Part shown: positions 9,241-39,858 of the stretch, piece by piece
Numbering within the stretch: position 1 is the stretch's first letter
Layout: every line of letters begins with the position of its first letter
IMG/VR virus record: IMGVR_UViG_3300008107_000153
Span: 1 to 42,181 of that record
From: a virus
Length of the DNA: 42,181 nt
Reading direction: 5' to 3' (one strand)
The notes under the pieces: model-generated
Seen by the model: the letters and a program-made list of their open reading frames with translations, nothing else
Database searches by the model: none
Told to the model about the DNA's origin: nothing
Translations under genes and position numbers: made by a program

Positions 9241-10104
9241 ATGGAAAGTTCACGTAAAAATCCCCTGTCTTCATTTATGAGAAGACCAAAATTATTTCTA
9301 AAATTGCCCAGCCAAGGACGCTTTTGGCCTGAGGGCAGTTTGGAAATGCCAGACAACGGCGAGTTTCCAGTTTATGGATTAACAGTCAAAGACGAACTGT
9401 TGATTAGAACTCCCGATGCCTTGTTCAACGGACGTACCACAGTAGATGTGATTAAAAGCTGTGTTCCAAATATTTTAGATCCTTGGAAATGTCCAAGTCT
9501 AGATTTGGATGCAATATTAATTGCTATACGTATTGCCACATATGGTGAAAAGATGACCATGGATGTGAGTATTCCAGGCACGAATGAGAAAGAGCCGTTT
9601 GAAATTGACCTCAGACCACTTTTAGATCAGATCGTAGAAAATACTTACTGGGAAGAAGAAGTAAAAGTAAGCAACGATATGACCATATTCATCGAGCCAG
9701 TTACCTACAAAGTGTTAACTGACTACAGCTTACTAAGTTTTGACAGTAACCGTGTGTTACAAACTATTATACAAAACGAAGATTTAAGTGAAGAACAGCG
9801 TATTGACATGGCAGCAAATGCCATGGGACGCCTAGCAGATGCTACTCTAATGCAAATGTTGAACGGAATTAAACGCATTGATACCACTGAAGGTAACACT
9901 ACTGATCCATTACAAATTAAAGAGTTTTTAGAAAATTGTGATAAAGAATTCTTTGATGTTGTGGCCAAAGCGTTTAGAACTCTTAATGATAGAAACAACA
10001 AACGTTTCATGACCATACAGACTCCACAGCAGTATGTGGATCTAGGATCACCTGCACAGATGGAAATTCCTTTTGAGTTTGATTATTCAAATTTTTTCGT
10101 CTAA
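9241..10104 (+). CDS. 26: Baseplate hub / tail assembly protein gp26
   Basis: 287-aa protein of the T4 baseplate hub gp26 family. It opens RRPKLFLKLPSQGRFWPEGS, followed by TVKDELLIRTPDALFNGRTT and a CVPNILDPWKCPSLDLDAIL segment typical of the family. T4 gp26 is 208 aa. The start has CGGAG seven bases upstream and an exact late promoter. It ends FDYSNFFV, with the slippery run AAATTTTTTC four bases before its stop. A -1 slip there would carry ribosomes into gp51. Together with the neighbouring tape-measure gene this looks like a tail-assembly chaperone pair, although the hub role is the accepted description. Confidence 0.85.
   Translation: MESSRKNPLSSFMRRPKLFLKLPSQGRFWPEGSLEMPDNGEFPVYGLTVKDELLIRTPDALFNGRTTVDVIKSCVPNILDPWKCPSLDLDAILIAIRIATYGEKMTMDVSIPGTNEKEPFEIDLRPLLDQIVENTYWEEEVKVSNDMTIFIEPVTYKVLTDYSLLSFDSNRVLQTIIQNEDLSEEQRIDMAANAMGRLADATLMQMLNGIKRIDTTEGNTTDPLQIKEFLENCDKEFFDVVAKAFRTLNDRNNKRFMTIQTPQQYVDLGSPAQMEIPFEFDYSNFFV
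10089..10098 (+). promoter_or_regulatory. Candidate -1 ribosomal frameshift site (gp26/gp51)
   Basis: AAATTTTTTC contains two overlapping slippery heptamers in the gp26 frame, A_AAT_TTT (10089-10095) and T_TTT_TTC (10092-10098), four bases before the gp26 stop. The -1 frame is open from 10083 through gp51 to 10328. A slip at TTT TTC would make a 362-aa fusion. No strong downstream hairpin is seen. Confidence 0.5.
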
Positions 10105-10109
10105 GGCTT

Positions 10110-10328
10110 TTGTCTAAAACTCTTCCTGAAATTGTTGAGATATCAGCAGGACTCGACAAAGAAGCAAAAGCCATTGAGAAAGATACATTCAGGTTAGCAT
10201 GGTACATGCGTGGTGGCCTTACCACTGATGAGGCATTTCAGTTGACCTACGAGCAGAAACAAGCCATCAATGAAATCGTAAAGGAAAATATGGAGTGGAC
10301 CAAAGAGTCCGGTATGCCTTTAATCTGA
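10110..10328 (+). CDS. 51: gp51-like hub assembly factor / tail-assembly chaperone domain
   Basis: Small helical protein with the pattern FRLAWYMRGGLTTDEAFQLT followed by YEQKQAINEIVKENMEWTKE, resembling T4 gp51-type proteins and the T domain of tail-assembly chaperones. It is in the -1 frame of gp26. The first suitable start in its own frame is the TTG at 10110, with AAGG only three bases before it; there is no ATG until residue 33. The poor start and the open frame reaching back into gp26 suggest it is mainly translated by -1 frameshifting, as the end of a gp26-gp51 fusion. T4 gp51 is larger, so the gene number rests on family resemblance and adjacency to gp26. Confidence 0.65.
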   Translation: MSKTLPEIVEISAGLDKEAKAIEKDTFRLAWYMRGGLTTDEAFQLTYEQKQAINEIVKENMEWTKESGMPLI

Positions 10329-10485: not shown

Positions 10486-10509
10486 CACTTCGCCCTGGCG
10501 GGCGAAGTG
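10486..10509. repeat. Strong GC-rich inverted repeat
   Basis: Perfect 10-bp stem CACTTCGCCC / GGGCGAAGTG around the loop TGGC, by far the most stable hairpin in this intergenic region. No T run on either side, so it is more likely part of a structured RNA or a protein-binding site than a terminator. Confidence 0.7.
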
Positions 10510-10820: not shown

Positions 10821-11267
10821 TTAACTGTTAAGTTGAGCCTTAAATTTTTTGATTATGTGTGAGCCGTGGACGCGAACTTGAATGTGGCCATTGTAATACT
10901 CATCAGTTTCCAATACCTTACGTTCAAATTGCTCTTTGGCTTCTAGATATGAAGTTTCTGCCTTACTCGTGCAATAGTGGAGAATTTCACGTTTGAAGTT
11001 TTCTTTGCCTAATGTCTCTATGTCTTTGTTTAGTTCGTCACTTGAGCCATAATATTCTTGCCAGTCGCTATCTACTTTGCTTCTAATTCGTTTTTTCTTC
11101 TTAGTACCATTTTTTAATTTTTGTACTCTGTAAGTAGTTTTTGCGAACTTAGCTAATTTTTTGCCTATGTATTTGCGACCAGTGAGTGTGTTGGTTATAA
11201 TATATACAAACCCAACACACTCTTCTGGAAGCTGATCAACAGTGATCCCTTCGTGCAACCATGTCAT
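10821..11267 (-). CDS. GIY-YIG family endonuclease-like protein
   Basis: 148 aa. The GIY-YIG core appears as GFVYIITNTLTGRKYIGKKL at about residues 19-38. A basic loop follows (KNGTKKKKRIRSKVDSDW), then YYGSSDELNKDIETLGKENF and the helix SYLEAKEQFERKVLETDEYY, whose Glu residues could supply the metal-binding acid. This compact single-domain form occurs in many T4-like marine phages and lacks an obvious DNA-recognition extension, so it may be a resident nuclease rather than an active homing enzyme. Its ATG overlaps the stop of the 54-aa gene (ATGA), so translation is coupled. Last gene of the gp55 operon, next to the structured intergenic region. Confidence 0.8.
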   Translation of the reverse strand: MTWLHEGITVDQLPEECVGFVYIITNTLTGRKYIGKKLAKFAKTTYRVQKLKNGTKKKKRIRSKVDSDWQEYYGSSDELNKDIETLGKENFKREILHYCTSKAETSYLEAKEQFERKVLETDEYYNGHIQVRVHGSHIIKKFKAQLNS

Positions 11268-18827: not shown

Positions 18828-19943
18828 ATGGTAGGTCCAAATAAATTATTTGAATGGAGAGTTGATGATCGTGCATCATTATATTCTGCATCATATCAAC
18901 GAGCTAACGTTGGAAAATTTTTAAATTTTTCTATACAAGCAGATGGCAACTTTGCAATTAACGTTAACGGCGCGGCAGCAATTGTGCCGCAGTTGGCGCA
19001 AGTTGCGGCAATTATACAAGGCATATTAGGAATATTTGGTTTAGAAACAGACAGACCAGAACCAGCACCACAATTAAAAACCATCACAATTGATCCAGGC
19101 GTGACATTGGCAACACTTTTTGGAGCAAGTCAAGGAGTTAATATACTAGTACAAATTTTAAAAGGCAAGATACAGGCAATTAAAAATTATGTTGAATCAG
19201 CAGTTACTAGTATACAAAATTTAATACAGTGTGTTTTAAAGAATCCTTTACTGGCTGCGGCACTCCTAGCAAAAATTATTAGACAAGGTTGGATACCGTT
19301 TCCTGAACCAATTAAGAAAGCACTGATTGCGGCAAGAGATGCCATTAATAAAATTTTAGGATTAAATTTAATAATTTACAATCCGTTGGCTGAGTACATA
19401 AAAAGATTGGTTGAGTATTTGAAATTTAAATTCCCACCACCAATATTGTTACCGTTTATTCCATTCATACCTGGATGTAGTCCTGCATTCTATTCAGGAA
19501 GACCACCGTTGTCGTTGTTAAATCAAGAACCAATTGATGTGCAAGTACAGCCACAGACAATTACTACTCCTAATGGGTTTACGTCTAAAATTAATTTGAA
19601 TGTTCCAACATTTGCACTTGATGTCGGCCCAGGAGGAAATCCAGACCTAGCATTAACAGAAGACCAAGTACAAAATTTATTAGGAGGATATGATCCTTAT
19701 AATTTGTTTACGGCAGGAATACCAGCAGTTGAACTTGACTCAGGTTTGAATGTGGTAAACTTTCCAACTCAAACTTCAAATAATTCTGCTACAAGACAAG
19801 TTCAGGATCAGTTAATTTCTGCAAGTAATAAAGTTGCAAATGACATCACAGTACTGAACAAAGATTTATCTAGAGCAGGATTTATACCAAGACCTAGTCC
19901 GTTAGATGACTTGCTGTGTGCTCCAGGAGAAAGTGGTAGATAA
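18828..19943 (+). CDS. Hydrophobic baseplate-operon protein of unknown function
   Basis: 371 aa. The first half contains long apolar stretches (IVPQLAQVAAIIQGILGIFG; NPLLAAALLAKIIRQGWIPF; FPPPILLPFIPFIPGCSPAF), unusual for a baseplate component and reminiscent of a membrane-active or internal tail protein. The second half is Asn/Pro/Gln-rich and looks unstructured, ending DDLLCAPGESGR. It sits immediately before gp5, one base overlapping its ATG. It may ride on the hub or act on the cell envelope during injection; that is inference. AAGGAAA lies before its ATG. Confidence 0.6.
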   Translation: MVGPNKLFEWRVDDRASLYSASYQRANVGKFLNFSIQADGNFAINVNGAAAIVPQLAQVAAIIQGILGIFGLETDRPEPAPQLKTITIDPGVTLATLFGASQGVNILVQILKGKIQAIKNYVESAVTSIQNLIQCVLKNPLLAAALLAKIIRQGWIPFPEPIKKALIAARDAINKILGLNLIIYNPLAEYIKRLVEYLKFKFPPPILLPFIPFIPGCSPAFYSGRPPLSLLNQEPIDVQVQPQTITTPNGFTSKINLNVPTFALDVGPGGNPDLALTEDQVQNLLGGYDPYNLFTAGIPAVELDSGLNVVNFPTQTSNNSATRQVQDQLISASNKVANDITVLNKDLSRAGFIPRPSPLDDLLCAPGESGR

Positions 19944-21712
19944 TGGAACTAAAAAATAGTACGCAACAACCTTCAATATCTGGTTTAAGTAATGGACCAT
20001 ATATTGCTCGTGTAGTAGGTCACAATGATAGTACTCGAATGGGAACATTAGAGTGTGTGATTTTGCGAAAAGGTGGAGCCGGCCAAGAAATAGCAGACTC
20101 TGTTAGGGTGTATCCTAGATATGCCCCACACTTTTTTGGCTATACTGCGTATGAAGCAACAGATGGAAATCTACGTAACGCTTCAAGCTCACAACAAAGT
20201 TATGGCATGTGGTTTGTGCCGCCAGACATTGGTACAAAGGTCATTATTATTTTTATTGAAGGTGACAGGGAACAATGTTTTTGGCTAGCATGTGTTCCTG
20301 AGCCAGGCGTTAATCAAATGGTTCCAGGCATTGCCGCAAGTCAGTACGCAGAATTAACGCCACAAGAAAAAACTAAGTTAGGTTTTACTAGTGACACCGC
20401 AATCGTTCCTGTAGTTGAAGTTAACAAACGTGTTCAAGGTAGAGACAATTCTAAGCCTGATATTGTAAAAAAGGCTATGCATCCTTTTACACTTCGACTT
20501 GCTACACAAGGTTTATTAAAAGATCCTATAAGAGGAACAACAACTAGCAGTGCAAGACGCAGTACAATCAGCAATGTATACGGAATTTCAACACCAGGAC
20601 CTGTTGTAGTGGGTGGTAAACAGTATCGATTTGGAACTGAAAAAGATCCAATACCCGCCTACGTTGAACGTGAAGGCGGAACACAGTTTGTAATGGATGA
20701 CGGATACATTGGTAAAGATGAAAAAACTAAAAAAGAAGGTATTATTGACGAGTTAGTTAGACTTAGAACCCGTACTGGACATCAAATACTTTTACACAAT
20801 TCTAGTGATTTAATTTACATTTGTAATAGTAGAGGAACTGCTTGGTTAGAATTTACTAGTGATGGAAAAATTGATATCTATGCTGCCGATAGTATAAGCA
20901 TACACAGTGAAAATGATTTTAATTTTAGAGCTGACAGAGATATCAACTTTGAGGCAGGCAGTAATGTTAACATAGTTGCGGCACAAGGCTCTATGCATTT
21001 TGAAGCATCAGGATTGATTGAAGGGTTTGCTGGATTAGATTGTAACTGGACAGCGGCTAATCACTTCAATGCTAGTGCGCTAGGACGTGTTCGTTTAACT
21101 TCAACTGGCGCAAGTACTAATCCAACACAAGCTGGACCATTATCAGGCATTGATTTATATTCAGTACTTGGTAATATCAACATGTATGCAACGACTGAAC
21201 TTAAGATGCAGACACTCACCGAGTTTGATGTAAAATCAGGAGTAGCAACTAATTTTATTTCTGGTGCAAGTACAACATTTAAGACAGCAGGATCTTTTAA
21301 CGTGGACACTGTTGGTGGTAACTTTATTAACGCTGGCGGAGCAAACGTGTTCACCGCAATTGGCAGTCACATTGAAAGAGCTACGTTGATAGATATGAAC
21401 GGTCCAACGCCTGCCCCAATATCTCCTTCTGCCGCAACTGATTTAGCATTTGCTTTAGATGCGCTATCAATACTGCCAGAGGCGGCAACCAGTGTGGTCA
21501 CACTGGATAGATTTTCTCTTTCAGGAAGAACTGCTGATAAGAACGCAACCAGTGACATGCAAAAGGGTTGGGAAAATAATAATTTTTATGCTGGCACTAA
21601 GATTAGTAGTATAATGCGTCGTGTTCCAACACATGAACCATGGGACGATCATGAAAATATTAACCCAACGGCTTATAAGCCTGAAAAAACAGGAAGGGAT
21701 GGACCAATATAA
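19943..21712 (+). CDS. 5: Baseplate hub and spike protein gp5 (no lysozyme domain)
   Basis: 589 aa. Residues 10-130 look like the gp5 OB-fold (SNGPYIARVVGHNDSTRMGT, YGMWFVPPDIGTKVIIIFIE). A middle linker reaches RTRTGHQILLHNSSDLIYIC near residue 273. The rest is a triple beta-helix spike with repeats such as KIDIYAADSISIHSENDFNF. T4 gp5 carries a lysozyme domain after the OB-fold; no comparable Glu/Asp/Thr catalytic segment is visible here. It therefore resembles a VgrG-like spike. It overlaps gp25 by one base at its end. Punctures the outer membrane; host cell-wall digestion would need another protein. Confidence 0.82.
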   Translation: MELKNSTQQPSISGLSNGPYIARVVGHNDSTRMGTLECVILRKGGAGQEIADSVRVYPRYAPHFFGYTAYEATDGNLRNASSSQQSYGMWFVPPDIGTKVIIIFIEGDREQCFWLACVPEPGVNQMVPGIAASQYAELTPQEKTKLGFTSDTAIVPVVEVNKRVQGRDNSKPDIVKKAMHPFTLRLATQGLLKDPIRGTTTSSARRSTISNVYGISTPGPVVVGGKQYRFGTEKDPIPAYVEREGGTQFVMDDGYIGKDEKTKKEGIIDELVRLRTRTGHQILLHNSSDLIYICNSRGTAWLEFTSDGKIDIYAADSISIHSENDFNFRADRDINFEAGSNVNIVAAQGSMHFEASGLIEGFAGLDCNWTAANHFNASALGRVRLTSTGASTNPTQAGPLSGIDLYSVLGNINMYATTELKMQTLTEFDVKSGVATNFISGASTTFKTAGSFNVDTVGGNFINAGGANVFTAIGSHIERATLIDMNGPTPAPISPSAATDLAFALDALSILPEAATSVVTLDRFSLSGRTADKNATSDMQKGWENNNFYAGTKISSIMRRVPTHEPWDDHENINPTAYKPEKTGRDGPI

Positions 21713-25614: not shown

Positions 25615-28600
25615 ATGAGTAAAAGAAAATCAGTAGACTTACTTCCAGTAATCTTTAGAACAGATGCAAACGAAAAATTCTTAACTGGAACGATAGACCA
25701 ATTAATTGAGAAACCAACATTAAAGAAGGTTGACGGATTTATTGGTGATAAAATTATTGGAAACTATAAGCCAGCTAGTGACTCCTATATCAATGAGGGT
25801 ACTGATTTAAGAAACCGCTATGAGTTAGAACCAGGTATTGTAATAAAAAATTCAGTAACAGATCAAGTAGAGTTTAACAAAACTTTTGAAGACATTATCA
25901 ATAGTTTAAAGTACTTTGGTGCAGATATTCGTAACCAAGATAAGTTGTTTAGACAACAGAGTTATACTTGGAATACCTTTATTGATTTAGACAAGTTTGT
26001 TAATTTTAGAAATTATGTTTGGTTACCTAGCGGTCCAGCGACAGTTAGAATTAGCGGAAAAGAAAAAGAAGTTACTAGTACAATTAAAGTAAAAATTGTT
26101 GATGACAATTGGAATTTTAGCACAAATGAAATTGCAGTTAATCCTACAATTACTTTGTACAGAGGATTTACTTACATCTTTGAAGTTGATACAGTTGATC
26201 AGTCTTTCTATATTAAAAATAAAAGAAGCAGTGGAGATGTTGATTCTTGGGATGGAGTACAAAATAACGGAGCAACATCAGGTTCAGTTATTTTCAATGT
26301 AGTAGAAAGCACACCAAGTACACTGTTTTATGTCAACGGAAATGACAACACTCTTTTTGGCAGATTTTTAATTAGAGACCAAAAAGAGAATACAGAGCTA
26401 GATGTTGAAAATGAAATTATAGGTAAAAAGACCTACGAAATTAAAGACGGAATACACTTGTCAAATGGAATGAAGATTGTTTTTTCAGACACAGTGTTTC
26501 CTGAAAAATATCGAGATAAAACTTATATTGTTGAGGGAGTAGGAAACAGTATCACTCTGGTTGACTACAATAGTCTACTTACAATCGAAGGCTATTCAAC
26601 AATCGTTGAAACATCTTTTGATGATACTGGATTTGATGAGTTACCTTTTGATGAGGTTTCAGAATATCCTGTTAACCCTGATTATATCTTGATTAATCGA
26701 GCAAGTGAAGATAAAAACCCATGGAGTAGATATAATAGATGGTTCCACATTGATGTGGTGAACACTAGTTCCCTATTGAATAATACTGATCCAACATTTA
26801 CATCATTTGATAGAGCTCAACGTCCTATTATTGAGTTTCGTCCAAATATGCAACTGTTTAATTTTTCTAAAATAACAAAGTATGTTAATTTTTTAGATGA
26901 CACAGTTACTGACGCTTTTAGCAATATTGAAGGCTCTTTAGGCTATTATATTGACGGAAAAGCACTAGAAGACGGCAATAGAATTGTATTTCTTTCAGAC
27001 ACTGACTTAGATGTAAAGAATAAAATTTATCAAGTACAGTTTATTGACATCAACGGAGTTAAGAAACTTCACTTAGAAGAGGCAGAAGACTCACTACCAA
27101 ATTTAGATGATGGACTACTTGTTATTAGCGGTATTAAAAATGGTAGAACATCTTGGGTTTTTAAAAATGGTGAATGGATAAAGTCACAACAAAAAGAACA
27201 TATTAATCAATCACCATTGTTTGATATCTTTGATTCAAATGGTGCAAGTTTCTCCAATAGCGATATCTATAAAGATACAAACTTTTCTGGTTCTAGAGTA
27301 TTTGGCTATCAAATTGGTGTTGGTAACAATGACAGTATTTTAGGCTTTCCTCTTGTTTACAAAACTGTGTCAAACGTTGGCGGTTACACATTTGAAAATT
27401 GTTTATCAGAAGATGCGTTTGAATATTTTGTTGATGGACAAGTGGTAGTAGGCAATACTAAAAACGGATTTTTAAAAGAAAACAACAACTATGTTAATGG
27501 TTGGGTAAAGTGTAATAAACTATCAATCCAAGAAATTATCGATCAACGTATTGCAATTGGCGGCGAAGATGCATTTGAGTTTGACAGTATTGATATTAGA
27601 ACTCCCAAAGAGAATGTACGAGTTTTTAAGAACGGAAAAAAACTAACCGCTACTGAATTTGACGTTAGAATTGATACAGCATTTGACTCTTTCTTTATCA
27701 CGTTAGCAACTGTATTAGTCAAAAACGATGTTATAGTAGTCAAAGCTCTACCAACGTACGACAAAAAAGAAGATGGGTATTATGAAACCCCAATAAATTT
27801 AGTAAACAATCCAACCAATGAATTCCCAGGATTTTTAAGCTATGCTGAAATCAATGATCATTTAAACTCTATTATTTTAAATGCATCAAAAGATTTAAAC
27901 ACTGCCATTGATAGAAATAATTTACGTGATTTAGAAAACTTGGACAAATACGGAAGAAGATTTGTTCAACACGACGGTCTGGTTGCAATGGCAGGCGCAC
28001 TAATAGCTAATAAAGATTATAATCTAATACATTCTATTCGTTGGTCTGCATTGGAATATCAAAGATATAAAATTTTAGTATTACAAAAATTTACAGAATT
28101 AGCAGAGTATGCTAATATTCCAGATGCATTAGATAAGATAATTTTAAGTATTGCTAAAGATAAAACTCCTGCTTCTATGTTTTATTATAGTGATATGTTG
28201 CCGTATGGCTTAAACAAGCGAGATTATACATACACTGTTAACGATACAAATATTAAGGCGTATGCATATGGATCAGAAATTTACGATAGATTTTTGTTTG
28301 GCAAAAAGGCAATATTAGTATATGTTAACGGAGAGCAGTTGACCATTGATAAAGATTATTCTTTTGATGTAAACAATCCGTTAGTTAGATTCGTTAATAC
28401 ACTATCAGTAAGTGATGAGATTTTAATTAGAGTTTTTAATAATATTCATGGTGCAGTGATGCCTATGTCACCAACAAAACTAGGACTATATCCTAGTTTT
28501 GAGCCAGCAATTTACTTAGATGACACGTATATTGAACCAACGTCAGTTATACAAGGACATGACGGGTCAGTTACAGTTTGCTTTGGCGATGACAGAGATC

Positions 28601-31600
28601 AACTATTATTAGAGTTAGAAAAACGAATTTACAACAATTTAAAAGTTGAATACGATCCAAGAATTTTAGATGTAAATGAAATTTTGCCTAGCATATTTAG
28701 AAAAACTGGATACACGTCTGAGCAATTTGACCAATCTATTGAAGATGAATTTTTAAAATGGGTTGGTATCTATAGTATTGACTATACAGCAAACGAAAAT
28801 GAAATTTACCTAAACAACTTTGGATTCAAATACGTAAATTCAAATGGCATAATTGATAGAAATGCATTTATCACCGGCTCTTGGAGAAAAATTTACAAAC
28901 AGCATTACGATACAGATAGACCACATACCTGCCCTTGGGAAATGTTAGGCTTCTATAAAAAGCCAACTTGGTGGGAAACTGAATACGGCCCTGCTCCGTA
29001 TACATCTGGTAATGATGTTATGTGGAAAGATTTGGAATATGGATATATTCGAAATGGAGTTAGAAAAGGCTATGATGAAAAATATGCAAGACCAGGACTG
29101 TCTAATATTATCCCTGTAGATTCATACGGCAGTTTAAAAGATCCTTTACAAGTCAATGCTGTAAAAGATTTTGATTATTCTGCAAGATATACTAACTGGT
29201 CATTTGGTGATATGGGTCCTGCAGAAACTGCTTGGAGAAGAAGTGATATCTATCCTTTTGCAGTGCAAATAGCAATGGCGCTAATAATGCCAGCTAAGTA
29301 TGCAACTTTAGGATTTGACACTTCACGAAATGTCTTTAATATTGCTAATCAGATCGTATATAAAGATTCTTTAGAAAGACTGAGTCCGTCTGCACTAAAG
29401 GTTTTTTCAAATACAATAGATAATAATTTTGTTTATGCAACAGGTTATCATCCTTACATTGTTGAAAATTTAAGACAGAGATTTTCTAATCCAGCATTTA
29501 GATTACAAAACTACCTAAATAGAATTCAATCAAACTTAATTTATAAAGTTGGCGGATTTACAAGTAAGGATAAGTTTAGAGTTGCATTGGAAACAGTAAC
29601 ATCTTATAAAACAGTTGACAAAGTGTATGTCCCAGAAGAAAACTATCAATTAGTTCTTTCTACAGGGTCTCCTACTAAAACTTTAACAATGTCTGGTATT
29701 ATTGTTGAAAGAACAGAAGCTGGATATATGGTGAGAGGATATGATTCTAACTCTCCTTATTTTACAATTAAAAAAGCAATCCATGCTACTAATGATCCTG
29801 TAATATCTGTAGGCGGAACAACTGAACCATTTATATATTGGTCTGCAAACGCCACTGTAAATGCTGGACTAGTAGTTGCTAACGGCCAACAATATTATAG
29901 AGCAATTTCAACTCACTTGACTAAGCAGGCATTTGATCCAGGATTATATTATCCACTTCCTTACCTTCCAGCAATTGGTGGTGTTGAAGCATTTGTACCA
30001 AATTCTTTTGAAGACGTTGATACAATTGTGCCTTATGGAACAAAATATAATTCTATACAAGATGTATTTGATTTTATACTTGGTTACGGCGAACAAGTTA
30101 AATCCTTAGGATTTAAATTTGAAAATCTTTTACCAGAGCTAGATGTAATTGCAGATTGGAAATTAGCAGGAAAAGAGTTTTTATTCTGGAGTCTACAAAA
30201 TTGGTCTACCAGTTCAGTAATCAGTCTTTCTCCTTTTGCAGAAAAGATTTATTTTACAAGTGAAGATTCTGTCGTTGATGATCTATACGATAGTTTTTAT
30301 GATTATACTCTACTAAAAGCAGATGGTACTACTATTGATAGAACCAAAGTAAGAATTTCTAGACAAGAAGGTTCTTTTGTTATTGATACTGCTGGCACGG
30401 CTGATGGTGTTTATTTTGTAAAAATTAGTCTAGTACAAAAAGAACACGTTGTAGTTTTTGACAATAAAACAATTTTTAATGATCTAATTTACGAACCAAC
30501 TTCTGGATATAGACAGAAGAGATTCAAAATTAAAGGGTTCATGACAGACGGCTGGAAGGGTGATTTTTACATTCCAGGATTTGTATATGACAGCGCCAAG
30601 ATTAATGATTGGGAACCTAACATTGATTATGAAATTGGAAATGTTGTTAGATACCAAACAAAATATTATCAAGCTAAAGCTCGCACATTAGCTAGAGAAC
30701 TTTTTAATTATGAAGATTGGACACTACTAGGCAAGCAACCAGTTGCACAGTTGTTGCCTAACTTTGAATATAAGATTAGTCAGTTTGAAGAATTCTATAG
30801 TTTAGATAGTGTTAACTTTGATAACAGTCAACAAAAATACGCACAAAAATTAATAGGTTATGTTCCAAGAACATATTTAAATTCTTTGATACCTGACGAG
30901 TCAAGTCAGTATAAATTTTATCAAGGATTTATTAGAGAAAAAGGAACTACACTTCCATTAGAGAAGTTTGCAGTTGCTAATAATACTGCAACAGGCGCAC
31001 ATATTAGTTTACAAGAAGAGTGGGCTATTAGATTAGGAACATTTGGTGGAGAAAATTCTTATGAAGAAATAGAATTTACTCTAGACCAAAATAAAATTAA
31101 TCAAGATCCTCAAATCTTTGAATTTGAATATAACAATCTAAAGTCATCTTTAGATAAAGCATACAAAGTTTCATTATCTGATATGCAGATTCGTCCAGCT
31201 GATTATAATGGACAACCTTGGCCAACTCTTGATGTATCTCCAGTTAATGGTAATGGATACAGCCAATATCAAAAAATACCAACTGCGGGCTATGTAAGAT
31301 TAGATGATGTTGTATTCACTGGATTATATGAAAACAACATACTAACATTGTCTTCTTCTGCTTCTTTGAGAGAAGGTGATACTGTTTGGTTAGCAATTGA
31401 TAATTCAGGAAATTGGGGAGTTAAAAGATACACGCTGTCCCCTGTGACAATTATTAATTATACAGTTGATAACGCAAATAATTTAATCAGTTTTAATACT
31501 GACGTTGCGCATAAACTAAAATTGCGTGATTTTGTATCAATTTCTAGACTAGATGATCCACTAAATGGTGTTTACGAAGTATTAGGTATTCCTGATGGAA

Positions 31601-34600
31601 CAACATTTGTAGTCAAAACAGCATTTAACGATATACCAACTGCTGGTGAAATACTAAACGGGTCAATGTATTATTTTGCTTCATCAAGATTTGCTAACCT
31701 AGATGATTTAGCATCTATTCCAGGACTTGCAAGATGGCAAAATTGCGAGTTTGTTTGGGTTGATAATGTTGGTGACGGCACATGGGCAGTTTTAGAAAAA
31801 GAAGCAAACACAAAAGCATTACCAATACGACCAAGAATTAATCAGTCTGGACAAAAATTTGGTAATACTACAATAATTGCTCCAGTGTCTAAAAATATTA
31901 TTGTTTCTGCTACAGAATTAGAACGTGGCAGAGTGTATGTATATGAAAGAAACGCACTTGGATCTGAAGATGTTATCTTACATCAAAGCTATTTGTTAGA
32001 AGAAAACTTCAGTGATATATTAACTATACAAGATGTAAAAAATGGAGTTGCAATACCAGAAATACAAAGACTCCACGGGGCAAGTTTAGATTGCTGGGAA
32101 AATACATCTCTTACTATACGATATATTGTTTCAGGAGCTCCAAATTCTTCTAATGCAAAATGGAAAGTTTTAGGTCAGGCATTAGATCCAATTAAAAAAG
32201 TTTTAGACTTTAATAAGTCTTCGTCCGAGTTGTTTGACGAGGGTGCAATTAAGATTGTTAAATTTAATAATGATCTTGATGAGTATAGAACTGAAGTTGT
32301 TTTAGCTAGTCCTATAGCACAAGAAGGTGCAAACTTTGGTCACAAAGTAAAATTTGTAGGATCTGACAAACCAACCTTATTGGTATCATCACCAGGACAA
32401 GATGGCGGCATTGGCGCAATATTTGTTTATTATTTGGACAGTAGCAATGTGTGGCAAGTGTATACTGTTGGCGGAAATCCATACAATCTACGCTCTGCAG
32501 TCACTGATGTAAATTCAAAGTCTAACTTTGGTAGTGACATTGTATCTAATAAAAATGGAACAGTGTTGGCAGTATCAGCACCTGGACACTTAAAAGATAG
32601 AACACAAGTTCACTCAGGTGCAGTGTTTATTTTTAGAAAAGATCCAGGTTCTTACAGCTATCAATTAACACAAACAATATATGCAGATGACTATTTAGAA
32701 TCAAATGACTTGTTGTTAAAAGGGGTAATAAAATCCTACAACACTATTGCGCAAATTATTTCATTCCAAGCATCAGATAATTCAATAGTTAGAAACAATG
32801 GAAGTTTTATTGCAGATGGTTTTAGAATTGGACAATCTGTTATTATTGCTGGATCAACAAATGCAGGTAATAGTGGAGAATTTGTAATCAGTGAATTGAG
32901 TGTATTACGTATGGCATTTAAACCATTGCGTTCACTAACAGACGAAACTGCTACAACAACTATTACTATCACAGGTCAAGGTACAATTAGAAACGATAGA
33001 TTTGGTGACAAACTAGCTATGTCAGCAGATGGCACAGCACTACTAATATCTAGCGATCATTCTTCTACAGAGAAATTAGATGCAGGTTTGGTCTATGTAT
33101 TAAAATTACAAACAAACGCTTCATACGCCTTGGATCAAAAAATTACTTCACCAGCAACTGAAACAGGCGAACTATTTGGAAGTAATCTAGCGTTAAGTGA
33201 TGACGGTAAAACATTATTAGTCACTGCTATTGGCGGTGGTCAAGCAACACCTGTTGCATTTGACACTTACACTGAACGATATACTGACTCTGCACAAAGA
33301 TATGGATCAGAATATGTATTGAACCCAACATCTGCGGCTGCGCCCTTAAGAACAACATTTGATACTGGCAGCACTAGATTTGTAAGCAAAGCACAATCTA
33401 GTGGAGCAGTTTATTTGTATCAAAAATTAGGAAACAAATATGTTTTTGGTGAATCGTTAATTAGTGGCGACAGTGCGTCCTTTGACGGATATGGTACTGG
33501 AATTGCAACAGACGGTGAGTTCATGCTTGTTGGCGCACCAAAATATGATTTAAAAGTTATTGGAACTTTAGAAGATTCTAATCAGTTGACAACATATACA
33601 GATTCTGGAACGGTTGTAATTTTTGACAAAAAGCGTGATATAGATCAGGCATGTGGCTGCGGCTCTTCTTGGTCATGGTCAAAAGTTAGAGTGCAGGAAG
33701 CAATAATTGATGTTGATAAAATTAAAAAAGTTATCAGCTATAACAACAGTACATTAGAAATTATTGATCATTACGAAATTTACGATCCAATAAAAGGTAA
33801 GTTGCCATCTAAGGTATTGAATGAAATCAAATACATTCAACCATTCGACCCAGCAGTTTATACTGTTGCATTAGAAACTTCAGCAAAAGTAAGAGTTGAT
33901 AATAAAACAACTTGGTTAGACGACCATGTTGGTGAGGTTTGGCTTGATACTAGCACCTTAAGATTTGTTTGGTATGAACAAGGAAATAATGAGTTTAGAG
34001 CAAACAACTGGGGCAAGTTGTTCCCAGGATCAACTGTTGATGTATACGAATGGGTTAAGAGTGATTTTAGACCAAGCGAGTGGGCACAGTTAGCTGACAC
34101 CACTGATGGATTAGCATTAGGAGTAAGTGGTCAGCCACTAAATCCAGATAATACGGTCCTTTCAATTAATCAATACTATGATCCTGTTGTCAATGACTTT
34201 GTTAACGTTTATTACTTTTGGGTCAGAAACAAAATTACTCTTCCAGATTTAGCATTTAGAAATTTAAGTTCTTTTGATTGTGCAAGAATAATTGAGGATC
34301 CTAAAGGTCAAGGTATTAAATTTGCTAGCTTCTTAGCAACAAACTCACTGAGTTTAACCAATGCTAAAAAGTCTTTGAATGGTGATAAAATTAATATTGA
34401 TGTGTACTATCAAACATCTGAAAAAGAAATTAATCGTCACAGTCATTGGCAGCTAGTGAATGAAAATGTTACCTATTTAAATTTAGATCCTAGCATTGAA
34501 AATAAACTTATTGATAGTCTTGTTGGTCAAGATGTTGCTGGAAATCCAGTACCTGATCCAACATTGTCTCCAAAATTACGTTACGGTACTTCATATAGAC

Positions 34601-37600
34601 CAAGACAGTCTTGGTTTAAAGATAGAGACTTGGCATTAAAAATTATGATTGAGTATGTCAATGAAGTGTTACGTAAACATGATATTGTTGGCAAGTCTAA
34701 TATAACCAGTTTAGAAGAAGTTGAAGATTACCCGTCTATTAGTTTAGGACATTATGATGAAGTCATTGAATTAAGTGATGAAATATCACTGATAGGCACC
34801 AACGGAAAAGCACAAACTAAATTAAGTGCTGAAGTAATCAACGGTAGGATTGTTAGCGTAAACATTGACGACCCTGGTAATGGTTATAAAGTTGCCCCTA
34901 CAGTTAGAATTTATGGTGATGGGCAAGGAGCAACAATACAAACTGCTATTGACTTAAATGGCCGTGTTGTTTCTGTTAGAATTGTAAATCAAGGTTATGG
35001 ATATACTCAAATACCAAAATTAATAGCTCGACCATACGCAGTATTAACTATACTTGATACAGAAATTGACAAGTGGGCAATCTATCAATACAAAAACAAA
35101 GCATTTGTTAGAGAGTCTACGCAAACAGTTAATGTACCCAAATACTGGAGTTATATTGATTGGGTTGATCCCTCTTATGCAGTTGATGTTCCTGCCACAT
35201 ACGCAATTAATTTTATTTCAGATTTAGAATCGTTTATTTTTGAAACAGGGTCAACAGTTGAAATTAGAACACCAGGAGACGGTAGAAAAATTATTCTACG
35301 TAAGACAGCACCAGGTATTGGCAATTATCTTGATGACTATGATCTAGTGTTTAGAGAAAACGGAACTGTACAATTTAACAACAAGTTGTATGATAAGGCC
35401 GCTGCCGGACTTGGATTTGACAACGTAACTAGATATGACCAAGGTGGATTTGATGAAACAAATACTACTGAATTACGTATTATTTTGAATGCAATTAAAG
35501 ACAATATTTTTACAGGTGACCTAGCGTCCTATTGGAAAAAGTTTGTATTTGTTGCTGTAAGACATGTTTTAAGTGAGCAGTTGTTTGTAGATTGGGTATA
35601 CAAGACTAGTTTTATTACACCTCTTGTGGATGCCGGCACACTAGATCAAGATGATGTTTATCGTTTTAATGACTTCAGCTACGTTGAAGATTTTATTAAA
35701 GAAATTAAACCATATAAATCTAAATTTAGAGAATCAACAGTTAGCTATAACACTACTGAAAAGATGGGTGTAGGCGTAACTGATTTTGATTTGCCTGCGT
35801 ATGTTGATAGTGTAACTGGTAAGATTAAATTGCCAACTAGCTCTATGATTAACAATGTTTATCCATACAAGCACTGGGGTGAAAATTATGGATTTACTGT
35901 ATCAGATATTAGAGTTGGATTGGCTGGAGAAAATTATATAACTCCTCCAATAGTTACAATTGTGCCTGTTAGTGGCGACACTGGTACTGGTGCTACAGCA
36001 ATTGCTAAAATTAGTAATGGAAAACTATCAAGCATCATTGTTACAAATCCTGGAAGCGGATATTTAACAACTCCTAGAGTTATTTTAACTGGCGGATCAA
36101 ACTACTTAACAAATTTTGTAAATGGTTCTGCGTATGCTGTGTTATCAAACAGCAAGGTAAGAACTAATCAAATACAGATGAAGTTTGATAGAACTTCAGA
36201 TAAAGGTCTATACACTGGGGAAATTCTTAACAGAAATCTTGACACAGATGGAATAACATTAAATTATGTATTGGCTTATCCATCTACTAGTACAGACACA
36301 AACTATCCTGCATTACAGGATGAATCAACTATTAAGTTGTTTTTAAATGATGCAGAAATTAGTGCTGATAATTACAGAATAACTTTTAGAAATGATTTGT
36401 CAACAGTGATTACATTTAATCTTGCACTGCCTGCAAGACAGAATTTAAGAATACAATATATTAAAAACACATTGTATACTGTTGATACGTTTACTCAATC
36501 TTCTGGAGAAAGCTATACTGACACGTTCAAATTAACTTTCCCTCCAGAGTTAGATACTGATAAAATCATTGTACGTGAATTAAATTCAAGTACCAATACT
36601 GGTTCAGAAATCATAACTAGCGACTATTTGATTCAACTAAGACAAGTTGTTGAAACTGGATTTACAAAGTATGTTGGATACATTAACTTTAAAAACATAC
36701 CAACTCCGGGATCAACAATTACAGTTCAGTATGCTAAAAATATTAACATACAAAATGCAGTTGATAGAATTATTACCAGTTACTACCCAACTGCAAATAT
36801 GCCAGGAAAAGATGTCACCCAACTAATAAAGGGTGTGGAGTTTGGTGGAGTTGAAATACAAGGACTTAACTTCTCAGTTAGTTCAGGTTGGGACGGCCTA
36901 CCTTGGTTCACACAAGGATGGGATACGTTTGTCAATAGCTACAAAGACTTGTTAGTAATTTCAAACGGAACTACATCTACATATGAATTAGGGTATACTC
37001 CTTTATTAGGAACAAAAATTAACGTTTATTTTGACGGCGTTAGAGTTGATGATGAAAACTATGGTACTGTAAATCAAACTAACAATGACGCATTGTTCAA
37101 TACGATTACAACTAACGGATCTACTAGTACATTGACTCTTCCACAAGTTCCAGTTACTGGTACAAAAATTGAAATACGTCAAGAATTAAGTGACGGAGTA
37201 AACCTACCAACTGATGATATCGTTCTTGATACAAATATTACAGGCGGTGATTTCTCAACAATTTCAGATGCGGGTGAAATACGATTTAGAACTGCAACTG
37301 GACTAAGTGCAACTGATATTAGTCTAGACGGTGGCGAATTTTTATCTGTTGAACACAGCCCTTCAACAGAAGAATTAGTCAAAGGTGAGATTTTTGACAC
37401 GTTGTCAATGACAGTGTTTAACAGTCCTGGTGCTGGCAGTAATTTGATTTCTACTAAACAGTTTATAATGGATGGGTCTACAATGCAATTTGTGATCCAA
37501 GATACAATTGGTAGCGGGCAAGAAATATTTGTTTTAATTGGTAACTTTGTTGCTAAAGAAAATACTGATTACACATTAACAGCAAACAGTAATGGAACAA

Positions 37601-39858
37601 CCACTGTTGAAATTATTACTACTGAATATGGAGTTGACCAGCTGTCAACCACTAATACACTTGCTCTTACAGTTCAAAAGACAACAATTGGTGGAAATAG
37701 TATTTTAAGTAGATTTAGTTACACTGTGACTAGTGCAAATGCAGGCGCAAGTTCTTTTGAAATATTATCAGAAGTTAATTATCAAGATATTGGTAGCTAT
37801 TATATTTCAATTTCAAATACTAGTTCTTTAACAAAAGTAGCAGGTAGATCAAAACGTGCTAAGATTATTATCACTAACACGCCTACTTTAACAGCAGGAA
37901 CAGTGATCAACATATTGTTATTTGGATCTACAGTTAAAACTTATAGTGAAATTTATAATCAAGAAATCGTAATTGATAATAATACAACATATACTCTAAC
38001 GAAGCCACCTGGCAACATTGCGCCATTACACGTTATGGCAGCAGTAACTAGACTAACTTCTTCTACAGAAGACTGGAAAGGTCCTTGGGAAGAAAATGTC
38101 TACTATGTAATAAATGACACTGTTTTGTACAACAATGTTTCCTATATTTGTAAAATTGGACATACGAGTACGCAAACTAATTCAAACTTAGAATTCTCAG
38201 CATGGGCAAGCACAACTTCTTATGACGTTAATGACATTGTTTCTTTCAGTGGTCAATATTATATTTGTAAAGTTACACACACTTCAAATACAACAACATT
38301 AACTCCTGATAATATTGTATATTGGGGTGCGCATATTACTAACCGTCCTGATGAAGATACAGCTAGAATTTATTGGGGTCTTGCTCCAACGCAAAGAATG
38401 ATGCCGCCTGAAACTGAATATTATGAAGTTACACAAAACTCTCAAACATTTAGACTAGGTGAAAATATTCCTTACTTGACAAGAACGTTATCAATATCTG
38501 ATATTGAAGTATATAAGAACGGAAAAATCATAGTAGTGGGACGAGATTACGAATTTGATACAATTGATAACACAGTTACAATGAGCTCAGGAGTTGCACA
38601 AGTGGGCGATGTAATTGCAGTATGTATACTGCGTGATTCAGACTATGTAATTTTTGGAAATCAAATAACATTTAGATCTCCTTCTAAAATACAAGCTGGT
38701 CAAAGAGTATCTGTAGTTACCTATACAAATCATGATGAGAATTTAATTAGAAGAGAAGTATTCAAAACTAATCCTAATAGGAATGAATATAAACTTAGCA
38801 GACCTGTTTATAACATTAATAACGTTTGGGTCGATGTTAACGGCCGTCCACTAATTCCAAATTACGATTATCAAGTGGTTGATCGTGACTACATACAAAT
38901 ATCAAACAGATTTAATTTAGGAAACAATGACAGGGTTGTTGTGACAAGCATTAGTGACATTGTATCAAGCGAAGCAGTTTCTTATAGAATGTTCAAAGAT
39001 ATGACTAACGCTGTACAATTTAAGAGATTATCAAAGAACAGCACAGTGACTTTAACAAAGGCTCTCTTATCAACTGATAGAGAAATTGAAGTCAGCGATA
39101 CAAGTATATTTGGTGTGGTTAATGTTAATAATCCAAAACCTAGCTCAATCTTTGTTGCTGGAGAAAGAATTGAATTCAGATCTATTGTTGGTAATAAACT
39201 AACAAATCTAACTCGAGGAACACTTGGAACAGGGGTAGCTGATAGCTATCCTATTGGGACAAAAGTATTCAACGTTGGAAATAATGAAACTATCCCTTAC
39301 AGAGAAGGATATACTATAAAAACGTATAAAACTCCTGAAAATTACAAATTTAATCAAACTACCAACAGATATCAGCAATATGTAAACGGTAATTGGGTAA
39401 ACGTAACCACAGTAGCTTCTTATACTTTAACTGATTTCAGCTTCAATGAAGCGATTGGTCTTGAAGATCAAGTAACGGTCTACATGGCAGGCAAGATTCT
39501 AACTAAACCAGTTAGAGGAACTAACCAGCTGATCAGACATGATTTTAGCATTACTCATAATTCGAACGAAGTGAACAGCCAAAATCAAACTGGAGATTTA
39601 ATAGTTGCGCCAGATTTTACCATTACAAAAGTTGGTAATAACTATGTGCTAACGGTAAATCCTAGTGTGCTAAACTTGGCCGATGATTCTACAGTGATAT
39701 CAAATGTTGACATCAAAGTAGTACAAAAAATTGGTAAAATTTGGTATACCCTTGGCGGAACAACTACAATACAACAAGAGTCGACTCCACAGGCTAGATT
39801 CCTGCAAGAGTTCACAGCAGAGTTGCCCGATAAGTATTACTATGGCAAACTGTCTTAA
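25615..39858 (+). CDS. Giant multidomain baseplate/tail-fibre protein (4747 aa)
   Basis: A single frame of 14.2 kb, about a third of the window, in the place of T4 gp7-gp8. The N-terminus (LLPVIFRTDANEKFLTGTID, then YTWNTFIDLDKFVNFRNYVW) is a family I recall from marine T4-like phages and probably anchors it to gp6. Visible modules: a Trp-rich block at about 1103-1130; CBM5/12-like W/Y modules near 1404-1449, 1663-1710 and two in tandem at 4154-4239; five FG-GAP-like blades at 2235-2645 (NFGSDIVSNKNGTVLAVSAP); and Gly-Tyr repeats (PGNGYKVAPTVRIYGDGQGA) at 3072-3142 and 3431-3496. The carbohydrate and propeller modules suggest surface binding. No frameshift was seen. The gp7 label is positional. 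Confidence 0.85.
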   Translation: MSKRKSVDLLPVIFRTDANEKFLTGTIDQLIEKPTLKKVDGFIGDKIIGNYKPASDSYINEGTDLRNRYELEPGIVIKNSVTDQVEFNKTFEDIINSLKYFGADIRNQDKLFRQQSYTWNTFIDLDKFVNFRNYVWLPSGPATVRISGKEKEVTSTIKVKIVDDNWNFSTNEIAVNPTITLYRGFTYIFEVDTVDQSFYIKNKRSSGDVDSWDGVQNNGATSGSVIFNVVESTPSTLFYVNGNDNTLFGRFLIRDQKENTELDVENEIIGKKTYEIKDGIHLSNGMKIVFSDTVFPEKYRDKTYIVEGVGNSITLVDYNSLLTIEGYSTIVETSFDDTGFDELPFDEVSEYPVNPDYILINRASEDKNPWSRYNRWFHIDVVNTSSLLNNTDPTFTSFDRAQRPIIEFRPNMQLFNFSKITKYVNFLDDTVTDAFSNIEGSLGYYIDGKALEDGNRIVFLSDTDLDVKNKIYQVQFIDINGVKKLHLEEAEDSLPNLDDGLLVISGIKNGRTSWVFKNGEWIKSQQKEHINQSPLFDIFDSNGASFSNSDIYKDTNFSGSRVFGYQIGVGNNDSILGFPLVYKTVSNVGGYTFENCLSEDAFEYFVDGQVVVGNTKNGFLKENNNYVNGWVKCNKLSIQEIIDQRIAIGGEDAFEFDSIDIRTPKENVRVFKNGKKLTATEFDVRIDTAFDSFFITLATVLVKNDVIVVKALPTYDKKEDGYYETPINLVNNPTNEFPGFLSYAEINDHLNSIILNASKDLNTAIDRNNLRDLENLDKYGRRFVQHDGLVAMAGALIANKDYNLIHSIRWSALEYQRYKILVLQKFTELAEYANIPDALDKIILSIAKDKTPASMFYYSDMLPYGLNKRDYTYTVNDTNIKAYAYGSEIYDRFLFGKKAILVYVNGEQLTIDKDYSFDVNNPLVRFVNTLSVSDEILIRVFNNIHGAVMPMSPTKLGLYPSFEPAIYLDDTYIEPTSVIQGHDGSVTVCFGDDRDQLLLELEKRIYNNLKVEYDPRILDVNEILPSIFRKTGYTSEQFDQSIEDEFLKWVGIYSIDYTANENEIYLNNFGFKYVNSNGIIDRNAFITGSWRKIYKQHYDTDRPHTCPWEMLGFYKKPTWWETEYGPAPYTSGNDVMWKDLEYGYIRNGVRKGYDEKYARPGLSNIIPVDSYGSLKDPLQVNAVKDFDYSARYTNWSFGDMGPAETAWRRSDIYPFAVQIAMALIMPAKYATLGFDTSRNVFNIANQIVYKDSLERLSPSALKVFSNTIDNNFVYATGYHPYIVENLRQRFSNPAFRLQNYLNRIQSNLIYKVGGFTSKDKFRVALETVTSYKTVDKVYVPEENYQLVLSTGSPTKTLTMSGIIVERTEAGYMVRGYDSNSPYFTIKKAIHATNDPVISVGGTTEPFIYWSANATVNAGLVVANGQQYYRAISTHLTKQAFDPGLYYPLPYLPAIGGVEAFVPNSFEDVDTIVPYGTKYNSIQDVFDFILGYGEQVKSLGFKFENLLPELDVIADWKLAGKEFLFWSLQNWSTSSVISLSPFAEKIYFTSEDSVVDDLYDSFYDYTLLKADGTTIDRTKVRISRQEGSFVIDTAGTADGVYFVKISLVQKEHVVVFDNKTIFNDLIYEPTSGYRQKRFKIKGFMTDGWKGDFYIPGFVYDSAKINDWEPNIDYEIGNVVRYQTKYYQAKARTLARELFNYEDWTLLGKQPVAQLLPNFEYKISQFEEFYSLDSVNFDNSQQKYAQKLIGYVPRTYLNSLIPDESSQYKFYQGFIREKGTTLPLEKFAVANNTATGAHISLQEEWAIRLGTFGGENSYEEIEFTLDQNKINQDPQIFEFEYNNLKSSLDKAYKVSLSDMQIRPADYNGQPWPTLDVSPVNGNGYSQYQKIPTAGYVRLDDVVFTGLYENNILTLSSSASLREGDTVWLAIDNSGNWGVKRYTLSPVTIINYTVDNANNLISFNTDVAHKLKLRDFVSISRLDDPLNGVYEVLGIPDGTTFVVKTAFNDIPTAGEILNGSMYYFASSRFANLDDLASIPGLARWQNCEFVWVDNVGDGTWAVLEKEANTKALPIRPRINQSGQKFGNTTIIAPVSKNIIVSATELERGRVYVYERNALGSEDVILHQSYLLEENFSDILTIQDVKNGVAIPEIQRLHGASLDCWENTSLTIRYIVSGAPNSSNAKWKVLGQALDPIKKVLDFNKSSSELFDEGAIKIVKFNNDLDEYRTEVVLASPIAQEGANFGHKVKFVGSDKPTLLVSSPGQDGGIGAIFVYYLDSSNVWQVYTVGGNPYNLRSAVTDVNSKSNFGSDIVSNKNGTVLAVSAPGHLKDRTQVHSGAVFIFRKDPGSYSYQLTQTIYADDYLESNDLLLKGVIKSYNTIAQIISFQASDNSIVRNNGSFIADGFRIGQSVIIAGSTNAGNSGEFVISELSVLRMAFKPLRSLTDETATTTITITGQGTIRNDRFGDKLAMSADGTALLISSDHSSTEKLDAGLVYVLKLQTNASYALDQKITSPATETGELFGSNLALSDDGKTLLVTAIGGGQATPVAFDTYTERYTDSAQRYGSEYVLNPTSAAAPLRTTFDTGSTRFVSKAQSSGAVYLYQKLGNKYVFGESLISGDSASFDGYGTGIATDGEFMLVGAPKYDLKVIGTLEDSNQLTTYTDSGTVVIFDKKRDIDQACGCGSSWSWSKVRVQEAIIDVDKIKKVISYNNSTLEIIDHYEIYDPIKGKLPSKVLNEIKYIQPFDPAVYTVALETSAKVRVDNKTTWLDDHVGEVWLDTSTLRFVWYEQGNNEFRANNWGKLFPGSTVDVYEWVKSDFRPSEWAQLADTTDGLALGVSGQPLNPDNTVLSINQYYDPVVNDFVNVYYFWVRNKITLPDLAFRNLSSFDCARIIEDPKGQGIKFASFLATNSLSLTNAKKSLNGDKINIDVYYQTSEKEINRHSHWQLVNENVTYLNLDPSIENKLIDSLVGQDVAGNPVPDPTLSPKLRYGTSYRPRQSWFKDRDLALKIMIEYVNEVLRKHDIVGKSNITSLEEVEDYPSISLGHYDEVIELSDEISLIGTNGKAQTKLSAEVINGRIVSVNIDDPGNGYKVAPTVRIYGDGQGATIQTAIDLNGRVVSVRIVNQGYGYTQIPKLIARPYAVLTILDTEIDKWAIYQYKNKAFVRESTQTVNVPKYWSYIDWVDPSYAVDVPATYAINFISDLESFIFETGSTVEIRTPGDGRKIILRKTAPGIGNYLDDYDLVFRENGTVQFNNKLYDKAAAGLGFDNVTRYDQGGFDETNTTELRIILNAIKDNIFTGDLASYWKKFVFVAVRHVLSEQLFVDWVYKTSFITPLVDAGTLDQDDVYRFNDFSYVEDFIKEIKPYKSKFRESTVSYNTTEKMGVGVTDFDLPAYVDSVTGKIKLPTSSMINNVYPYKHWGENYGFTVSDIRVGLAGENYITPPIVTIVPVSGDTGTGATAIAKISNGKLSSIIVTNPGSGYLTTPRVILTGGSNYLTNFVNGSAYAVLSNSKVRTNQIQMKFDRTSDKGLYTGEILNRNLDTDGITLNYVLAYPSTSTDTNYPALQDESTIKLFLNDAEISADNYRITFRNDLSTVITFNLALPARQNLRIQYIKNTLYTVDTFTQSSGESYTDTFKLTFPPELDTDKIIVRELNSSTNTGSEIITSDYLIQLRQVVETGFTKYVGYINFKNIPTPGSTITVQYAKNINIQNAVDRIITSYYPTANMPGKDVTQLIKGVEFGGVEIQGLNFSVSSGWDGLPWFTQGWDTFVNSYKDLLVISNGTTSTYELGYTPLLGTKINVYFDGVRVDDENYGTVNQTNNDALFNTITTNGSTSTLTLPQVPVTGTKIEIRQELSDGVNLPTDDIVLDTNITGGDFSTISDAGEIRFRTATGLSATDISLDGGEFLSVEHSPSTEELVKGEIFDTLSMTVFNSPGAGSNLISTKQFIMDGSTMQFVIQDTIGSGQEIFVLIGNFVAKENTDYTLTANSNGTTTVEIITTEYGVDQLSTTNTLALTVQKTTIGGNSILSRFSYTVTSANAGASSFEILSEVNYQDIGSYYISISNTSSLTKVAGRSKRAKIIITNTPTLTAGTVINILLFGSTVKTYSEIYNQEIVIDNNTTYTLTKPPGNIAPLHVMAAVTRLTSSTEDWKGPWEENVYYVINDTVLYNNVSYICKIGHTSTQTNSNLEFSAWASTTSYDVNDIVSFSGQYYICKVTHTSNTTTLTPDNIVYWGAHITNRPDEDTARIYWGLAPTQRMMPPETEYYEVTQNSQTFRLGENIPYLTRTLSISDIEVYKNGKIIVVGRDYEFDTIDNTVTMSSGVAQVGDVIAVCILRDSDYVIFGNQITFRSPSKIQAGQRVSVVTYTNHDENLIRREVFKTNPNRNEYKLSRPVYNINNVWVDVNGRPLIPNYDYQVVDRDYIQISNRFNLGNNDRVVVTSISDIVSSEAVSYRMFKDMTNAVQFKRLSKNSTVTLTKALLSTDREIEVSDTSIFGVVNVNNPKPSSIFVAGERIEFRSIVGNKLTNLTRGTLGTGVADSYPIGTKVFNVGNNETIPYREGYTIKTYKTPENYKFNQTTNRYQQYVNGNWVNVTTVASYTLTDFSFNEAIGLEDQVTVYMAGKILTKPVRGTNQLIRHDFSITHNSNEVNSQNQTGDLIVAPDFTITKVGNNYVLTVNPSVLNLADDSTVISNVDIKVVQKIGKIWYTLGGTTTIQQESTPQARFLQEFTAELPDKYYYGKLS

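Follow-up and report, generated by a model that had tools for sequence, protein, structure and literature searches.

The window, by which we mean the whole 42,181-base stretch of viral DNA analysed here, carries T4-like genes, including one for the portal protein (PF07230, E = 3.7e-90). Its nearest named relatives by BLAST are phages of 287-490 kb, which suggests that the DNA comes from a jumbo phage. The portal gene and an 802-aa ORF share one strand, and a gp26-like gene on the + strand is divergent from the 802-aa ORF. The gp26-like ORF (9241-10104, +) encodes 287 aa, the putative short form (TAC-N), and matches PF12322 (E = 6e-07) and the baseplate hub family phrog_150 (E = 2.9e-10). Its 3' end reads GAT TAT TCA AAT TTT TTC GTC TAA.

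An earlier, sequence-only reading of this DNA had described two in-frame slippery heptamers at this junction, and direct reading confirms both them and their coordinates. The run AAATTTTTTC at 10089-10098 contains T_TTT_TTC (10092-10098, +), a perfect X_XXY_YYZ heptamer in the gp26 frame, and the overlapping A_AAT_TTT (10089-10095, +), which is common in jumbo-type loci and not universal. Three bases (GTC) lie between T_TTT_TTC and the zero-frame stop TAA (10102-10104, +), at which the short form terminates. The −1 frame is open from 10083 to 10325 and closes with a stop at 10326-10328, again as that reading had it. A slip at 10098 would join 286 residues to a −1 extension of 76 codons plus stop (10098-10328, +), giving a predicted long form (TAC-NC) of 362 aa; the proposed product sizes of 287 and 362 aa were thus right. 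The small −1 ORF had also been said to lack a nearby ATG and to offer just a poorly placed TTG. Its first ATG is indeed codon 37, and the sole start codon (ATG, GTG or TTG) in codons 1-36 is the TTG at codon 5 (10110-10112, +), with AAGG 3 nt upstream.

The non-coding gap after the −1 ORF holds a Polynucleobacter-1 RNA (RF01718; 10683-10819, −; 83.9 bits against a cut-off of 37) and a perfect 10-bp hairpin, CACTTCGCCC/GGGCGAAGTG, at 10486-10509. The RNA was also found in 6 of 20 related loci scanned (L011, L023, L060, L070, L088 and L100), so this RNA family recurs beside the gp26-like gene in jumbo-type contigs. Near the gp26-like gene, too, lies an ORF for a SegE-type GIY-YIG endonuclease (PF19835, E = 1.4e-33; 10821-11267, −), possibly a homing endonuclease. 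Elsewhere in the window, a single ORF of 4747 aa (25615-39858, +) with CBM_5_12 and FG-GAP matches perhaps encodes a giant surface or fibre protein, and a 589-aa ORF (19943-21712, +) with Phage_base_V and DUF2345 matches below the cut-offs is a candidate gp5/VgrG-like spike.

Conservation of the heptamer and the −1 extension

We compared the junction in two sets of IMG/VR loci: 86 of jumbo type (6 from a first scan and the best 80 of about 600 candidates) and 80 of cyanophage type (the best 80 of about 600 candidates). These 166 loci represent 165 contigs, because L009 and L022 are one contig, and since the loci are related, their counts are not counts of independent events. Dereplication by a 90% ungapped rule dropped 25 near-duplicates and left 141 loci (66 jumbo-type, 75 cyanophage-type); loci truncated by contig ends were excluded from length, fold and start-codon counts.

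T_TTT_TTC stands in the gp26 frame near the stop in 166/166 loci examined and in 141/141 after dereplication. In the other ORFs of the dereplicated loci, which served as a control, 26 of 340 Phe-Phe pairs have this spelling. Of the 141 dereplicated loci, 135 have a complete −1 frame beyond the stop, and in these it runs on for 58-75 codons; in control ORFs the corresponding run was shorter than 55 codons in 178 of 195 cases (median 10) and reached 55 or more in 17. The sequence-only reading had suggested aligning related loci to see whether the slippery run and the −1 relation persist, and both are kept throughout the 166 loci. Measured from the slip site, 60 of the 62 complete dereplicated jumbo-type loci have an extension of 76 codons and the other 2 have one of 75, and the cyanophage-type extension is 59-69 codons long. 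Length is thus nearly constant, although the zero-frame stop sits 1, 3, 4 or 6 codons past the slip site.

The extension also evolves as a protein. Among pairs at least 75% identical, substitutions at −1-frame positions 1/2/3 numbered 238/104/547 in the jumbo type (22 pairs) and 884/455/1923 in the cyanophage type (94 pairs), and this third-position excess indicates that the extension is read as protein. A chance origin is untenable, given the retention of the heptamer in every locus together with this pattern of substitution. The earlier claim that the locus bears the signals of −1 programmed frameshifting therefore has the support of the heptamer, the open −1 frame and their conservation.

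The gp26 junction was also read in 21 named genomes fetched besides that of T4. Fifteen have T_TTT_TTC with a −1 ORF (Phosso, Atu_ph07, PA5oct, Vibrio 2.275.O, 121Q, GAP32, Hallingskeid, S-CAM8, Bakedbeans, AS-szw, Moby, DLP6, D490, P-TIM68 and KVP40), and HTVC008M and RL38J1 have a −1 ORF after T_TTT_TTT and T_TTT_TTG, respectively, so that 17/21 combine a slippery run with an open −1 extension. The slippery run and the −1 relation are thus features that the window has in common with the gp26 and 'baseplate hub assembly catalyst' genes of KVP40, cyanophages and pelagiphages. The four phages that do not conform are S-SCSM1, Cygsa01, CBA120 and Kuja. The heptamer is absent from the junctions of the last three, and Cygsa01 has TAATG there with no slippery run. 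S-SCSM1 does have the heptamer, but three codons beyond the gp26 stop its −1 frame is closed. By eye, against P-TIM68, S-SCSM1 (L017, 3660-3874) carries about 11 extra bases after the stop, which put the annotated gp51 in the +1 frame; this could be either an assembly error or a genuine switch of mechanism.

RNA structure around the junction

In the window, a possible 9-bp stem follows the heptamer after a 6-nt spacer, with its 5' arm, GGCUUUUGU, at 10105-10113 (+) and its 3' arm, GCAAAAGCC, at 10164-10172 (+). Seven per 1000 shuffles score as high, and the stem also appears in the minimum-energy fold of 89 nt. The stability of the junction's own minimum-energy fold is unremarkable, with z = −0.31 for 65 nt and z = −1.47 for 89 nt, so for the window genome the stem is suggestive only.

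Across relatives the signal is stronger in the jumbo type. A strong continuous stem with its first pair 5-9 nt after the heptamer was found in 42 of 63 jumbo-type loci, against a mean of 2.3 in dinucleotide shuffles; the same test gave a modest excess in the cyanophage type (19/74 vs. 4.3 in shuffles). Likewise, the stretch downstream of the heptamer was paired in the minimum-energy fold of 45 of 64 jumbo-type loci (14.8 in shuffles) and of 26 of 74 cyanophage-type loci (17.7 in shuffles, maximum 25). One relative (L023) keeps the window's stem at equal distance with a one-sided change from U-A to U-G. Another (L070) has a like stem, GGCUUUCGA/UCGAAAGCC, with C-G for U-A and the 3' arm 21 nt nearer, so that the change is not compensatory in the strict sense.

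Across the jumbo set the distance of the 3' arm has two preferred values, which may explain the lack of a single consensus structure. RNAalifold returned no shared pairs on alignment A4, which holds 64 of the 66 jumbo-type rows with the window standing for L009, or on alignment A5, which holds 59 of the 74 cyanophage-type rows of sufficient length, 14 S-CAM8-like rows and L185 being omitted. On A4, one near stem that was specified beforehand pairs in 66.6% of cells, compared with 61.2% in shuffles and at most 49.4% in slid versions, and is absent in many rows. Its covariation score was 0.207 vs. 0.151, but double-sided changes were not in excess (9 vs. 8.6).

Upstream of the heptamer, a Shine-Dalgarno-like element occurs in 75/75 cyanophage-type loci and in 3/66 jumbo-type loci. 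In the cyanophage type the element is forced, because a conserved Glu-Gly pair (GARGGN) always contains AAGG or GAGG. GAG is used at the conserved Glu in 52 of 75 loci, against 603 of 1894 Glu codons in the same genes, and this excess hints at an upstream Shine-Dalgarno-like stimulator in the cyanophage type.

Relation to T4 gp26 and gp51 and the putative chaperone role

The short form belongs to the family of T4 gp26 and gp51: it scores 29.8 bits against PF12322, above the curated cut-off of 24.5. Its predicted structure has a mean pLDDT of 85.5, and the best match of this model in BFVD is a T4-like hub assembly protein (E = 3.1e-20). T4 gp26 and gp51 both match PF12322 (E = 8.8e-64 and 3.9e-52), and their genes are divergent neighbours; gp51 is a paralogue of the whole of gp26, extended by a C-terminal tail. 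The T4 record accordingly contains two PF12322 genes, of which 51 is the long one, and the records of the 21 other named phages contain one each. The window thus shares with T4 the PF12322 domain, and the short form ends in NFFV where T4 gp26 ends in EFFELL, but T4 encodes its two forms in two divergent paralogous genes.

The sequence-only reading had called the small ORF gp51, a separate gene. This assignment did not hold, as the small ORF corresponds to the tail of T4 gp51 by position only. The name is in keeping with cyanophage-style annotation, in which the small −1 ORF is labelled 'baseplate hub assembly catalyst'. When extensions were compared by hhalign with 7 T4-like gp51 tails (an eighth row, L198, was empty), those of cyanophage type, which are shorter than the jumbo-type ones, proved to be related to them in sequence (95%, E = 3.5e-8), and the KVP40 record itself describes the small ORF as similar to the C-terminus of T4 gp51. 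In contrast, jumbo-type extensions showed no detectable relation to T4-like gp51 tails (E = 0.16) or to cyanophage-type extensions (E = 0.19). The window's own 76-codon extension had no Pfam or PHROG match at E ≤ 0.05.

Searched by sequence against the PDB, T4 gp51 had no match, and all matches of the gp26 profile were at E = 0.39 or worse; Foldseek against the PDB returned no match at E ≤ 0.001, and a T4-like gp51 model reached no Z of 5 or more. Fold comparison with the HK97 chaperone 2ob9 gave Z = 6.3 (rmsd 4.6, 102 aligned, target 107), at rank 35 among unrelated helical chains.

The gene organization resembles that of lambda G/GT. A passage of PMC5009743, which cites Xu, Hendrix and Duda (2004), describes lambda gpG/gpGT as a −1 frameshift of tail-assembly chaperones, and calls the tail-chaperone frameshift widely conserved 'except T4'. 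As in lambda, a −1 heptamer ends a short ORF, a −1 ORF overlaps it, the predicted products are N and N+C, and the setting is one of tail genes. In contrast to lambda, the gene belongs to PF12322, and no common family was found by sequence.

In lambda-type arrangements the chaperone pair accompanies the tape-measure gene, and the earlier reading had placed a tape-measure-like gene divergent from gp26. The divergent 802-aa ORF is there, but it is at most a candidate tape measure, with no significant Pfam or PHROG match; among five jumbo counterparts, one (GAP32) has a weak tape-measure match (0.028). Of five non-jumbo phages tested, three have a large ORF after the pair with a match to tape-measure families, directly next to the pair in P-TIM68 and D490 and one ORF further on in HTVC008M. 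The ORF after the pair in KVP40 and AS-szw gave no tape-measure match.

On the best reading, 9241-10328 is one gene that very probably yields a short and a long version of a tail-assembly chaperone through −1 programmed ribosomal frameshifting. A chaperone of G/GT type in two forms had been proposed for this locus before, and the frameshift signals together with the PF12322 family support that proposal. Our confidence is not higher because tape-measure adjacency was seen in just 3/5 non-jumbo phages and a minority of extensions have early starts preceded by Shine-Dalgarno-like motifs. We infer that most ribosomes would terminate at 10104 and release the 287-aa short form, and that some would slip back one base on U_UUU_UUC, probably helped by the downstream stem, and add 76 codons to make the 362-aa long form. 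Family membership and the analogies with lambda G/GT and T4 gp26/gp51 suggest that the two products are the N and NC forms of the chaperone; on the model of lambda gpG/gpGT, coating of the tape measure would fall to the short form and recruitment of tail-tube subunits to the long one.

An alternative that accepts the frameshift would make the products structural parts of the hub and not transient chaperones. Database names do say 'baseplate hub', and PMC3004832 notes some genetic support for gp26 as a component of the T4 hub. However, the same source tabulates T4 gp26 and gp51 as hub assembly chaperones and describes gp51 as an essential protein whose function is unknown and which the finished particle lacks. 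The PA5oct record notes mass spectrometry for the portal and a neighbouring structural protein and not for the hub gene, which is weak evidence in the same direction. We regard structural hub parts as unlikely.

It is considerably less probable that the −1 ORF is a separate protein with its own start codon, translated by coupled re-initiation at the gp26 stop. An annotated ATG does overlap the gp26 stop in Phosso, 121Q, D490 and KVP40, an ATG falls within the first 25 extension codons in 71 of 74 cyanophage-type loci, and an early start with a Shine-Dalgarno-like 4-mer is found in 23/64 jumbo-type and 14/74 cyanophage-type extensions; the TAATG of Cygsa01, at a junction that has no slippery run, would also fit re-initiation. 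Yet re-initiation leaves the invariant T_TTT_TTC unexplained, and start codons are often scarce: up to codon 36 the window offers nothing but the TTG at 10110, and among 64 jumbo-type loci of sufficient length 31 lack an ATG within the first 25 codons of the extension and 18 lack any ATG, GTG or TTG within the first 20. Moreover, the residues right after the slip site are already conserved among jumbo relatives. An independently started gp51 as the sole route is rejected on this scarcity of start codons, and re-initiation and frameshifting could coexist in some phages.

Less probable still is a fusion mRNA made by transcriptional slippage on the T run. Six Ts precede the junction in every IMG/VR locus examined, but polymerase slippage usually requires longer runs. 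In the 141 dereplicated loci the run is exactly 6, never longer and always in heptamer phase, and a downstream stem at frameshift spacing is enriched; transcriptional slippage is rejected on the fixed length of the run. Finally, the split could in principle reflect faulty sequencing or the decay of a gene broken by a frameshift mutation, but nothing speaks for this beyond the split itself. It is refuted by conservation, since 166 loci (165 contigs) share the arrangement and selection acts on it at the protein level, and it has practically no probability left.

Evolution and significance of the putative frameshifting gene

A midpoint-rooted tree of 30 proteins was built without the gp26 of L195 and L196, and the rows of alignments A6 (32 rows) and A7 (12 rows) were hand-picked. 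Frameshifting phages fall on both sides of the midpoint root, and three of the four non-conforming phages lie in one small group with the frameshifting phage Bakedbeans (96/95). T4 gp26 and gp51 group together with weak support (84/58). On this evidence frameshifting probably came first, and the T4 pair would have arisen later by duplication.

These observations can be joined in a broader, tentative scenario, which as a whole we would lean slightly against. Frameshifting would be ancestral to the whole T4 superfamily and would predate the split between jumbo and T4/cyanophage lineages. T4 would have replaced it by duplication, with 26 as the short and 51 as the long gene, and the Ackermannviridae and a few others would have lost the slippery run, with re-initiation apparently taking over in at least one of them (Cygsa01). 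The C-terminal 'T' part of the jumbo-branch protein would have been swapped or have drifted beyond recognition, driven by its own frameshift RNA, with the 3' stem arm at two preferred distances.

The 2022 study by Vladimirov et al. is said to find frameshifting kept in several T4-like groups and to name genes 26 and 51. A shallow literature search found no paper on this pair, and traced the general principle through a passage of the PRFect paper to Vladimirov et al. (2022). According to that passage (PMC10885494, citing Vladimirov, Gautam and Davidson, 2022), some T4-like phages have one short gene and one longer fused gene in place of frameshifting. The window resembles the systems described there in its predicted short and long chaperone forms. 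Because the general principle is already in print, the addition made here is the jumbo branch, for which heptamer, extension length and stem were measured, and Vladimirov et al. (2022) may already cover that branch.

Many genomes of T4-like phages, cyanophages and jumbo phages present the extension as a separate 'hub assembly catalyst', call it hypothetical or leave it unannotated, and the finding would correct such entries. For jumbo phages, T_TTT_TTC followed by a stem would provide a single signal for probing how their contractile tails are started and measured.
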